DNA of 64,000 nucleotides, from the NCBI RefSeq assembly GCF_900129315.1, contig NZ_FQUS01000010.1, positions 1 to 64,000 of the forward strand. The letters run 5' to 3'. The position numbers and the translations under genes were made by a program. A model generated the notes under the pieces. That model worked only from the letters and a program-made list of their open reading frames with translations, searched no databases and was not told the DNA's origin. Positions 2,373 through 6,342 of this stretch are shown here, piece after piece. The stretch is from Fodinibius roseus (lineage in GTDB: Bacteria > Bacteroidota > Rhodothermia > Balneolales > Balneolaceae). Within the stretch, counting starts at the first letter, position 1. Each line of letters opens with the position of its first letter.

Positions 2373-3212
2373 ATGGAGAAGATGATAAAATCATTAGTAT
2401 GGACAGCGGGAATAATCGCAGCGGGCTATTTATTGATCCTGCTATTGATGTACCTGTTTCAGGCACAGATGGTTTATCATCCGGCGAAGCAAATAGGGGC
2501 AGATCCTTCCGCAGCGGGGTTGCCTTTTGAGGAGGTTACTTTCGGGACGGCAGATGGCCTGCAGCTTCACGGGTGGTTTGTGTCAGCCGGGGACAGCGCT
2601 TCGACCATCCTCTACTTTCATGGCAATGCCGGCAACATATCGGGACGTTTGGAGACGATCCGGTTGCTTCATGACCTGGGATTGAATGTGTTTATCTTTG
2701 ACTACCGGGGATACGGACGCAGTGAGGGAACGCCTTCCGAAACCGGCACTTACCGGGATGCTTCGGCCGCGTGGGATTACCTGACCCAAACCCGGGGAAT
2801 AGGAGAGGGAAGGATCATTACGATGGGACGCTCGCTGGGCGGGTCGATTGCGGCGTGGCTGGCAGCGCGCAAAGACCCTGCGGCGGCTGTCATTGAATCC
2901 ACTTTCATCTCGGCAGCCCACTTGGCCGCTGATCTCTATCCGTGGCTGCCGGTTCGCTGGCTGTTAAGATTCGACTACCATACAGTAGCGTACCTGCAGA
3001 ATATCGAAGCGCCTGTATTTATGGCCCACAGCCGGGATGACGAGGTGGTGCCCTTCCGTCACGGAAAAGCCCTGTTTGAGGCGGCCCGGAAGCCTAAAAT
3101 GTTTATAGCGCTTCGTGGATCGCATGCTTCCGGATTTTTGGATACGGAAATCAAATATCGACGACATCTGCGTGCCTTTTTGGATCAGCACACGCTCCGT
3201 AAAGTGCATTAG
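2373..3212 (+). CDS. Alpha/beta hydrolase, BEM46/YfhR-like, membrane-anchored
   Basis: A 279-residue serine hydrolase of the BEM46/ABHD13-like family. An N-terminal membrane helix (about residues 8-30) precedes the hydrolase domain. FHGNAGN supplies the oxyanion loop, GRSLGG holds the nucleophile Ser (about residue 154), SRDDEVVP the acidic residue and RGSHASGF the catalytic His. It probably acts as a carboxylesterase or acyl hydrolase facing the periplasm; no substrate can be named. A second ATG three codons in (2382) is possible. A degraded copy of its last ~50 codons lies at 5138-5207, so a paralogue once stood beyond the antiporter. Confidence 0.9.
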   Translation: MEKMIKSLVWTAGIIAAGYLLILLLMYLFQAQMVYHPAKQIGADPSAAGLPFEEVTFGTADGLQLHGWFVSAGDSASTILYFHGNAGNISGRLETIRLLHDLGLNVFIFDYRGYGRSEGTPSETGTYRDASAAWDYLTQTRGIGEGRIITMGRSLGGSIAAWLAARKDPAAAVIESTFISAAHLAADLYPWLPVRWLLRFDYHTVAYLQNIEAPVFMAHSRDDEVVPFRHGKALFEAARKPKMFIALRGSHASGFLDTEIKYRRHLRAFLDQHTLRKVH

Positions 3213-5065: not shown

Positions 5066-5137
5066 TTTTATAAAAGAAAATGTGAGGCAGACAGATCTCG
5101 TCCCTCATTTGAGTTCACCGGAAAGTTTAAATGGCTG

Positions 5138-5207
5138 TAACGCTTCGGGGATCGCATGCTTGCGGATTTTGGATACGGAAATCAAATACCGGAAACCGCA
5201 ACGCTAA
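5138..5207 (+). pseudogene. C-terminal remnant of an alpha/beta hydrolase paralogue
   Basis: About 55 bases match the 3' part of the hydrolase gene at 3109-3165 almost base for base (CTTCGGGGATCGCATGCTT against CTTCGTGGATCGCATGCTT, then GGATACGGAAATCAAATA). One T is lost in the run GGATTTTTGG, which shifts the frame. With the shift restored it reads LRGSHACGF then LDTEIKYRKPQR and a stop at 5205-5207. The upstream part is gone. It is a leftover from a tandem or transposed duplicate. Confidence 0.75.
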
Positions 5208-5384
5208 CTTCTCGATAAGCATTTACAATATAAATAAAATCTTTTCACTTACGGGAAATGGGTGGCCCAAAAGGATCAAAATAGCCATCGCATGGAACGG
5301 TTTGATGAATGATATGAATATTTGTGTTTTTACCATGATGAAGGTATATTTTAACGTGAAATTTCAGGCAAGTTTATAATAAAA

Positions 5385-5498
5385 ATGACGGACAACTATA
5401 ATTCCAACATGTGTATGTGCGAGTGTTGTTGTATGGGTATAATGCACCATACCTGTTGGATGAGTAGCGATTGCTTGATTTTTTGTAAAGGAACATGA
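5385..5498 (+). CDS. Cys/Met-rich small peptide, candidate leader peptide
   Basis: A 37-codon reading frame that I do not recognise from any family. It has eight Cys and six Met. Residues 9-17 read MCMCECCCM; residues 20-25 read MHHTCW; two more Cys precede the end. An inner in-frame ATG at 5409 would give 29 codons. The stop (5496-5498) overlaps the start of a seven-codon frame, and an intrinsic terminator begins 19 bases later, before a gene with a strong ribosome site. GATGAGT at 5459-5465, just after the Cys cluster, can pair with ACTCATC at 5525-5531, the left arm of the terminator, which would give a classic antiterminator. A sulfur-amino-acid attenuator is therefore possible. A metal-binding mini-protein is the main alternative; chance composition cannot be excluded. 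Confidence 0.45.
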   Translation: MTDNYNSNMCMCECCCMGIMHHTCWMSSDCLIFCKGT

Positions 5499-5518
5499 CG
5501 ACTAAAGAAACTAGCTAA
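5495..5518 (+). CDS. Seven-codon mini-ORF coupled to the Cys-rich frame
   Basis: It encodes MTTKETS. Its ATG overlaps the stop of the Cys-rich frame (ATGA), and AAAGGAAC directly before it is a fair ribosome site. It ends at the base of the terminator stem, so ribosomes finishing it would sit on the left arm. Only its position is informative. Confidence 0.25.
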   Translation: MTTKETS

Positions 5519-5557
5519 AAGCCCACTCATCATTCAGGTGAGTGGGCTTTTTTATTT
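5517..5557 (+). terminator. Intrinsic terminator / attenuator candidate
   Basis: GCCCACTCA (5521-5529) pairs perfectly with TGAGTGGGC (5539-5547) around a nine-base loop, extended by A-T pairs and followed by TTTTTTATTTT. It lies between the Cys-rich frame and the isochorismatase-like gene, both rightward, so it must end or control transcription into the latter. Confidence 0.85.
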
Positions 5558-5610
5558 TCGAAGGATTCCGTAAAAATTAAATATTAATAACAATAAAGGA
5601 GATAAATACA

Positions 5611-6342
5611 ATGGAGAACATTGGATTGAAGGACACCACCGACATTGCCGGGAATAAACATAAAGGAGGCATTCATGCCATCCCCGAACTTGCTCCCCAA
5701 TGGAAAAAGCTGAACTTGGCGAAAATTCTTAAACGAAAAGCTGCTTTTGCTTCTGTCAGCCAGAATAAATGTCTCTATGAAGAAGAGGGAGCCCTGGGAC
5801 ATGAAAACCACCGGGCGCGGGGAAGTCTTCCCGCCACGATGAAAGTGGTGAAAGCAGCCAGAAAAGCGGATAATTTTGTTTCATTTAACTGGATCGGCTA
5901 CAATATATACCGGGAGGATTATCCAAAAACTATCTTTGATGAGGTCCAGTACAACACATGGACGGAAGGCCTGGATGTGACAGAGGAAAAAATACGATGG
6001 GATAATGAACTTCCCGATGAACTGCAGGAGTTAGTTGCTGCCGAAGACTCTCATTTCCGGGAATGTGTGTTGCAGACAGCCTTTGTCGGTACCCCACTAC
6101 CTGTGGAATTAGCCAGGAAGGACGTAGAAGTTATTGTGTTTACGGGTCTTCACCTGGATTGGTGCATAGAAGGAAATACCCGTTTGGCCCGTGACCACGG
6201 ATATTTACCCATTGTTATTGGTGATGCCACTGGTTGTGAGAAACCCGAAGATGAGGCTGCGGCAATGGAACGTATCAATAATATTTTTGCCCCTGTTATT
6301 AGTGCCGATAAATTTGTTGAACTCCTTGAACAGCCCGTTTGA
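5611..6342 (+). CDS. Isochorismatase-like cysteine hydrolase family protein, divergent
   Basis: 243 residues. The C-terminal half fits the isochorismatase-like hydrolase fold: VIVFTGLHLDWCIEGNTR carries the expected nucleophile Cys (about residue 188), followed by ARDHGYLPIVIGDATGC. The N-terminal half is atypical. The usual DMQN-type strand with the first catalytic Asp reads AAFASVSQNKCL, so the Asp seems replaced by Ser. Catalysis may differ from the family or be lost. The start is supported by AAGGAGAT eight bases upstream, one of the best ribosome sites in the window. The gene follows the Cys-rich frame and terminator and may be controlled by them. Function is not known. Confidence 0.65.
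   Translation: MENIGLKDTTDIAGNKHKGGIHAIPELAPQWKKLNLAKILKRKAAFASVSQNKCLYEEEGALGHENHRARGSLPATMKVVKAARKADNFVSFNWIGYNIYREDYPKTIFDEVQYNTWTEGLDVTEEKIRWDNELPDELQELVAAEDSHFRECVLQTAFVGTPLPVELARKDVEVIVFTGLHLDWCIEGNTRLARDHGYLPIVIGDATGCEKPEDEAAAMERINNIFAPVISADKFVELLEQPV

Follow-up and report, generated by a model that had tools for sequence, protein, structure and literature searches.

The trp, his and ilv attenuators each combine a short leader ORF, enriched in codons of the amino acid that is sensed, with an intrinsic terminator, an antiterminator and an operon of the same metabolism. Mycobacterial polycysteine attenuators reportedly consist of leaderless ORFs and are reported to act by translation attenuation (Canestrari 2020). 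Ribosome-mediated attenuation is described for Mtb ilvB1 (PMC13236596). The uORFC-8-2 element of the Rhodobacterales has Cys codons in a uORF followed by a hairpin with a U-run, and sensing of Cys-tRNA is proposed for it; the accessible text describes it only before cysS and with two conserved tandem Cys codons (PMC8632094). Upstream of actinobacterial cys operons, short leader ORFs carry runs of Cys codons, and for those of Mycobacterium the available text reports that no conserved terminator hairpin was found (Seliverstov 2005, PMC1262725). CruR of Bordetella is a copper-responsive, Cys-containing uORF that controls a TonB-transporter operon, and its accessible description gives metal sensing by the nascent protein, a RAPP motif and Rho-dependent termination (PMC9426467). 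Within the phylum considered here, Flavobacterium psychrophilum has been noted for leader-peptide attenuation (PMC9723704), and sORFs of Bacteroides have been put forward as candidate leaders (PMC7366714); the main text of these papers, so far as it is accessible, names no Cys/Met leader or sulfur operon. A literature search in which subscription papers and supplements fell largely outside the scope found no report of a Cys/Met leader family.

The window, the whole stretch of 64,000 nucleotides of Fodinibius roseus DNA that we analysed, contains a short Cys/Met-rich ORF and a terminator that appear from sequence comparison to belong to such a family. Its members are defined by a short Cys/Met-rich ORF and then an intrinsic terminator, ahead of sulfur-acquisition genes or of TonB/SusD-like/M14 genes. 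The window leader is likely a ribosome-mediated transcription attenuator that senses the supply of Cys and Met as charged tRNA-Cys and tRNA-Met. Like the classical attenuators, the Cys/Met leaders have an ORF rich in the sensed codons, a terminator, an alternative antiterminator that is mutually exclusive with it, and operons of the metabolism of the sensed amino acids (sulfite reductase, CysH, SfnG). Unlike them, they make do with three segments, the tail of the ORF itself containing the antiterminator strand, and they occur as unlinked copies and tandem pairs. In contrast to uORFC-8-2, they have 2–9 Cys plus Met codons and head sulfate, sulfone and TonB operons in other phyla; sulfur operons, TonB operons or a hydrolase gene stand behind them, and not cysS. 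A terminator hairpin, of which no conserved example was found for the Mycobacterium Cys leaders, is present in the window and conserved in class B (below), and the terminator-less translational mechanism of the polycysteine attenuators is not matched by leaders with an intrinsic terminator and an antiterminator. Metal sensing by the nascent protein, a RAPP motif and Rho-dependent termination, as in CruR, were not seen. What sets the family apart from the known Cys attenuators is the codons sensed, the genes targeted, the lineages and the design in three segments.

The leader ORF lies at 5385–5498 on the forward strand and encodes the 37-codon peptide MTDNYNSNMCMCECCCMGIMHHTCWMSSDCLIFCKGT, which has eight Cys and six Met including the start Met. 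Codons 9–17 (5409–5435), as read from the sequence, form the putative sensor cluster M C M C E C C C M. The length, the composition and all coordinates given in the original prediction hold on re-reading. The leader TGA (5496–5498) overlaps, as had been claimed, the ATG (5495–5497) of a seven-codon frame that ends at 5518; a role for this frame is not supported, as it is absent from the nearest relative (G001).

The leader peptide has the highest Cys plus Met count among the 646 window ORFs of 20–60 aa, and its eight Cys and five internal Met are reached by none of 31,419 ORFs of this length in 30 simulated windows. The longer ORFs of the window (17,923 aa) contain 0.49% Cys and 2.19% Met. At default thresholds a finder of ORF-plus-terminator sites returns this locus alone in the 64-kb window and two such loci in simulated sequence totalling 2 Mb. 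Searched with Rfam at the gathering score, the window matches one tRNA only and no leader family. A candidate promoter, TTGTGT-N17-TATATT, may be read at 5322–5350 on the forward strand, where the aligned site in the nearest relative is TTGTGT-N17-TACCAT; 5322–5350 is not among the sites listed by a consensus promoter scan of the window. Elsewhere in the window, the regions at about 3060–3180 and 5120–5220 are partly alike, with minus-strand frames that share ISVSK and CDPRS-like words, and are possibly a short interspersed repeat.

The ORF is followed on the same strand by an intrinsic terminator hairpin (5517–5551) in which 15 pairs enclose a loop of 5 nt, with a T-run. The GC-rich core measures 9 bp, as first described, and the U-tract extends to about 5557. 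The segment ACTCATC (5525–5531) in the 5' arm is the exact complement of GATGAGT (5459–5465), which lies among the codons for WMS in the ORF tail and is the putative antiterminator strand. The original prediction proposed this pairing. The complementarity is exact, but taken alone it is not beyond chance, since shuffling does as well in 106/300 cases when codons are permuted and in 78/300 when bases are; the strand is supported mainly by the swap test across the family.

The 57 curated leaders comprise 34 from the order of the window, the window included, and 23 from one genus of another class; a terminator is present in all 57 by construction of the search, and the leaders, though not the window peptide, were partly chosen for Cys/Met richness. 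The 34 are readable ORFs, from which one decayed place in genome G008 was dropped and to which an identical copy in a named genome was not added. Function-blind DNA searches (58 relatives with 5340–5610, and a terminator pattern in 12 genomes of the genus) gave 13 further leaders, two of them in the window's own genome on contigs 16 and 34. A genome has up to three leaders at unlinked places. Among the 81 loci matching the terminator pattern (L001–L081), 24 show a leader, duplicates included, and many are bare terminators. A peptide similarity search (matches in 16 of 58 genomes at E ≤ 10) was abandoned, G001 alone being convincing and the leaders diverging too fast; another of its matches, L023, was checked and rejected. 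The peptides are 22–41 aa long and, by class, have 13.6–16.0% Cys and 11.5–19.5% Met. By inspection, their sequence and Cys spacing vary widely.

Five of the 13 leaders precede a sulfate-assimilation operon, four SfnG and four a TonB/SusD-like/M14 operon; these are our classes B, C and A, labels coined here together with F. Pfam searches covered the window proteins and those encoded at L082, at L083 and in part of L085, and NCBIfam searches covered L082, L083 and the hydrolase; the same operon genes at other loci were recognised by the start of their sequence. The class B operon encodes a rhodanese, an assimilatory sulfite reductase and a uroporphyrinogen-III methyltransferase in 5/5 cases. 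In the four loci for which the fetched sequence extends far enough, CysH and a siroheme-synthase dehydrogenase are encoded as well, and three have a ferredoxin. Its order is rhodanese-SiR-CobA-CysH-CysG; elsewhere the target is CysH. In the window's own genome, the sulfite reductase of this operon scores 779 bits (cut-off 457) and its CysH 243.5 (cut-off 154). Class C leaders precede SfnG, an FMN reductase and a flavin reductase; SfnG is above the cut-off behind all of them, with 569.7 bits (cut-off 382.95) in the window's own genome. Class A leaders precede a TonB receptor, a SusD-like protein, so called from its gene position and without a Pfam match, and an M14 peptidase; one of them, in G008, has two Cys and nine internal Met.

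The association was also approached through orthologues of the downstream genes, in tests that overlap the 13 leaders wherever the gene fits and in which several screens used relaxed finder thresholds; the CysH test in the other class is independent. Rhodaneses occur at 36 places in 35 of the 128 order genomes searched. At least 76% identity is found at 21 places, and 20 of these have an intact leader (18 of the 20 fetched loci by script, two by eye). The remaining place (L184, G008 contig 43, about 151,464–151,593) precedes a second rhodanese copy, and its decayed ORF has lost the Cys/Met run and keeps the RNA strands GATAGTGG and CCACTATC. The more distant rhodaneses (15 places) have a leader at one of ten examined, L115, which belongs to another family of bacteria. 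The relatives of the SusD-like protein have a leader in 6/6 cases at 58% identity or more and in 0/10 at 51% or less. SfnG genes above the cut-off have a leader in 5/11 cases; in L132 (G125), from another family of the order, two leader-terminators stand in tandem before SfnG.

A tandem pair also precedes CysH in L205, a weak covariance-model match in a genome of another class. Among 199 genomes of its genus (f29/g75), which is probably Flavobacterium, a close CysH (E ≤ 1e-90) is encoded in 15, and 14 of the 15 have a leader, nine of them as a tandem pair. These are the class F leaders, whose CysH matches that of the own-genome class B operon at 6.6e-43. Across the phylum (CysH in 112 of 296 genomes) one of the best 30 CysH loci has a leader. 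At four of the 15 listed CysH loci (L306, L308, L310 and L317) a protein encoded upstream looks like an Rrf2 regulator. Rfam, run on ten leader loci, finds only SAM-II, on the opposite strand in two; in L329 and L330 this riboswitch lies at about 1046–1116 on the minus strand, whereas the cysH leader is on the plus strand, and genes under sulfur control may therefore diverge here. A phylum-wide search with a class B covariance model (149 of 395 genomes at E ≤ 0.01) was set aside, as it mostly scores bare terminators. The 16 loci screened from it at low thresholds (L199–L214) include five with a qualifying frame: L205 is a clear leader, L199 a possible one, and the frames of L202, L210 and L213 were judged to be chance. 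The low-threshold frames of L116, L118, L119, L121 and L180 were also discarded, as were those of L301 and L306, which lie downstream of the gene.

Among the 80 named rhodanese loci listed, one is from Gracilimonas mengyeensis (L215) and has a leader, whose peptide equals that of G066 (family f1). Of the other 79, three that share the architecture are from Acidobacteria: L220 (1025–1213), L221 (2769–2916) and L233 (2742–2928). The Acidobacteria loci have an ORF with a Cys run, with no Met in the cluster, and a terminator upstream of the rhodanese, and the tail strand CTCTGGCG has its complement, CGCCAGAG, within the hairpin; the respective shuffle counts are 21, 13 and 33 of 500. At L228, from the Chloroflexi, an ORF and a hairpin are present, but pairing between them is not beyond chance (335/500). 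The other listed loci comprise four with a Cys-containing short ORF only and 71 unflagged within 450 nt of the gene. The Anaerolinea record L224 has a Cys-rich ORF and hairpin at default thresholds, farther upstream of the rhodanese (about 508).

The 3' end of the leader ORF usually carries a copy of the 3' arm of the terminator, and the tail can therefore pair with the 5' arm. In class B the tail strand is GGTAGTGG or a variant. Among the 21 class B leaders, 95.8% of cells in the antiterminator are paired, as against 26.6–59.7% when the strand is slid. Three of its nine pairs change on both sides, once from GC to AU and twice from UA to CG. Shuffles reach the observed values in 5/500 for cells paired, 3/500 for the covariation score and 2/500 for cells changed on both sides; they do so in 64/500 for the number of two-sided pairs and 234/500 for further pair types. 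The class B terminator also covaries (93.7% paired, 0/500). The compensatory stem changes that the original prediction had asked for are seen in relatives, and a lack of conservation of the Cys cluster and stems, named then as grounds for rejection, did not occur, since both recur in the curated leaders. The class B strand is in frame 0 in 17/21 leaders and in another frame in 4/21 (GSG-like as against VVE/VVD), which argues that the RNA rather than the peptide is conserved.

The other subfamilies show the same arrangement with unrelated sequences, for example TGAGGGGTT/AACTCCTCA and CAAGAGGC/GCCTCTTG. When all assignments of the eight tail subfamilies to the eight terminator subfamilies were compared, the observed value was reached by 3 of 40,320 with 60-nt tails, and with the last 36 nt only one did, the true pairing; the test uses means of eight subfamilies of our own definition, of which F5 has one member and F4 three. 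Subfamily F4 fails the test. In single leaders, a duplex test against codon shuffles gives at most 5/300 for 20/21 class B and 12/23 class F leaders and for 0/13 in classes A and C (16–106 of 300 in A, 20–119 in C); with base shuffles instead, 11/21 class B leaders stay at this level. These counts are not probabilities, because several relatives are close. The count of predicted antiterminator pairs (at least six in 55/57 leaders) was dropped as weak after a shuffle control, in which the observed means of 8.0–9.5 compare with shuffled means of 4.6–6.2, 17/57 leaders lie at or below 5/100, and the window has 0 pairs.

The nearest relative, G001, encodes the leader peptide VKNYNSNICMCDCCCMDMQMHVMCMCHTRWMSNCLKEFAKT, whose cluster ICMCDCCCM matches that of the window. 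TTGGATGAGTA is identical in the two, despite an 18-nt in-frame gap just upstream, and the ORF stays open across in-frame length differences of 18 nt and 3 nt. The terminator is kept, and the seven-codon frame is lost.

The putative regulated gene in the window (5611–6342, forward strand) encodes a cysteine hydrolase of the isochorismatase fold (Pfam PF00857, 75.5 bits), which agrees with the isochorismatase-like gene of the original prediction. No NCBIfam equivalog scores above its cut-off, and a search of solved structures gives five weak matches (best E 0.00015). The gene has its own purine-rich site, AAAGGAG, at about 5595–5601. Its homologues were found in its own genome only, both among the order genomes (1/128, E ≤ 1e-15) and among those of the phylum (1/395, E ≤ 1e-12). 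The peptide could accordingly not be traced upstream of this gene in relatives, as had been proposed, the other 127 and 394 genomes having no homologue. Among 72,556 plasmid records four match, all alphaproteobacterial and 60–64% identical; an Agrobacterium plasmid 'cysteine hydrolase' has 63.9% identity. In two of them (L339 and L340) the homologue adjoins the gene of an XRE regulator, genes for a GNAT acetyltransferase and a DMT transporter lie nearby, and together they may form a functional cluster. The hydrolase looks alphaproteobacterial and horizontally acquired. With this look, no homologue in the other 394 phylum genomes searched and no known role in sulfur metabolism, it is only a putative target of the leader. 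The window leader most resembles the leaders of class A, and no SusD-like gene was found in the window's genome (E ≤ 1e-40); our inference is that a gene of foreign origin ended up behind a class A leader here.

The order of segments suggests how the leader would work. Transcription would start just upstream and a ribosome would translate the ORF. With Cys-tRNA and Met-tRNA plentiful, the ribosome would reach the end of the ORF, the tail strand would fail to capture the 5' arm in time, and the uncaptured arm would form the terminator hairpin and stop RNA polymerase. With Cys or Met short, the ribosome would stall in the CMCECCCM cluster and GATGAGT would pair with ACTCATC, so that no terminator forms and the downstream gene is transcribed. 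Because the antiterminator strand is in essence the 3' arm of the terminator repeated, three segments suffice, pairing 1:2 for readthrough or 2:3 for stop. With the usual footprints, a ribosome halted within the Cys/Met codons would leave the strand of a class B leader free, and one at the stop could overlap it in most of these leaders. The Cys codon that most closely precedes the strand in class B starts 12–21 nt ahead of it, and the strand ends 7–22 nt before the stop; in the five other class A leaders it ends 10–16 nt before the stop. In the window this distance is 30 nt, so a ribosome waiting at the stop would not cover GATGAGT, and two further Cys codons lie 3' of the strand. In simulated stalls of the window leader, nine antiterminator pairs form at Cys10–16 and none at Cys24, 30 or 34; stalling at the first hungry codons would therefore work, though pair counts of this kind separate leaders poorly from shuffles overall. 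The long distance from strand to stop, common to the window and G001 (27 nt), is a weak point of the proposal.

The anatomy, the conservation and covariation, and the sulfur genes downstream in relatives are seen in the sequences themselves, and on these the attenuator reading is built; promoter, translation, stalling, readthrough and signal would follow from it. The original attenuator reading is supported by leaders before sulfur genes, by the compensatory changes and by the swap test. A sensor acting by nascent-peptide arrest, in which a Cys/Met/His-rich chain binds metal or senses redox in the ribosome, would control the same terminator, and would account for the Cys, Met and His-His of the window peptide and for the TonB receptors behind class A leaders, as CruR also heads a TonB-transporter operon in the part of its description available (PMC9426467). 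We consider it improbable, because sequence, length and Cys spacing vary across the 57 leaders, the class B tail is kept as RNA in different frames, the operons of classes B, C and F are sulfur and not metal operons, and the window peptide has no proline and hence no RAPP motif. Still harder to sustain is a free, small metallothionein-like protein with its own terminator and an unrelated gene behind it. The ORF and terminator would make a complete small unit, and the hydrolase has a purine-rich site of its own, but the Cys spacing is not conserved, the placement before sulfur or TonB operons is kept (20/21, 6/6 and 14/15), and the antiterminator covariation and the swap result would have no role.

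The window copy could also be a decaying class A relic whose operon was lost and behind which a foreign hydrolase stands by chance, which is compatible with attenuation in the rest of the family. The missing SusD-like gene, the hydrolase with its single occurrence in 395 genomes and its homologues on alphaproteobacterial plasmids, the antiterminator strand far from the stop and the duplicate-leader decay seen in G008 all fit such a history. It has against it the comparison with G001, in which TTGGATGAGTA is identical, the ORF stays open despite the length differences and the terminator is intact, as well as the nearly equal spacing of G001, where the operon is intact. On balance we think a relic rather unlikely, if well within reason.

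In the papers found, so far as their text is accessible, Cys attenuation is known for the cys operons of actinobacteria, where it goes without a conserved terminator, and for cysS of the Rhodobacterales. We suggest tentatively, and with rather less than even confidence, that leaders counting Cys and Met codons form a sulfur-starvation attenuator regulon across two classes of Bacteroidota (Balneolia and the Flavobacterium-like genus), that the same design arose or persisted in Acidobacteriota, that leaders in tandem work as a gate with two locks, and that a portable module put an alphaproteobacterial gene under sulfur-amino-acid control in the window. The leaders point to sulfur roles for the window hydrolase and for the TonB/SusD-like/M14 operon, possibly in the use of Cys/Met peptides. 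If the attenuator reading is true, they would switch assimilatory sulfate reduction, the use of sulfones and an uptake operon linked to TonB in the Balneolaceae, and cysH in another class, and would give a testable account of sulfur control.
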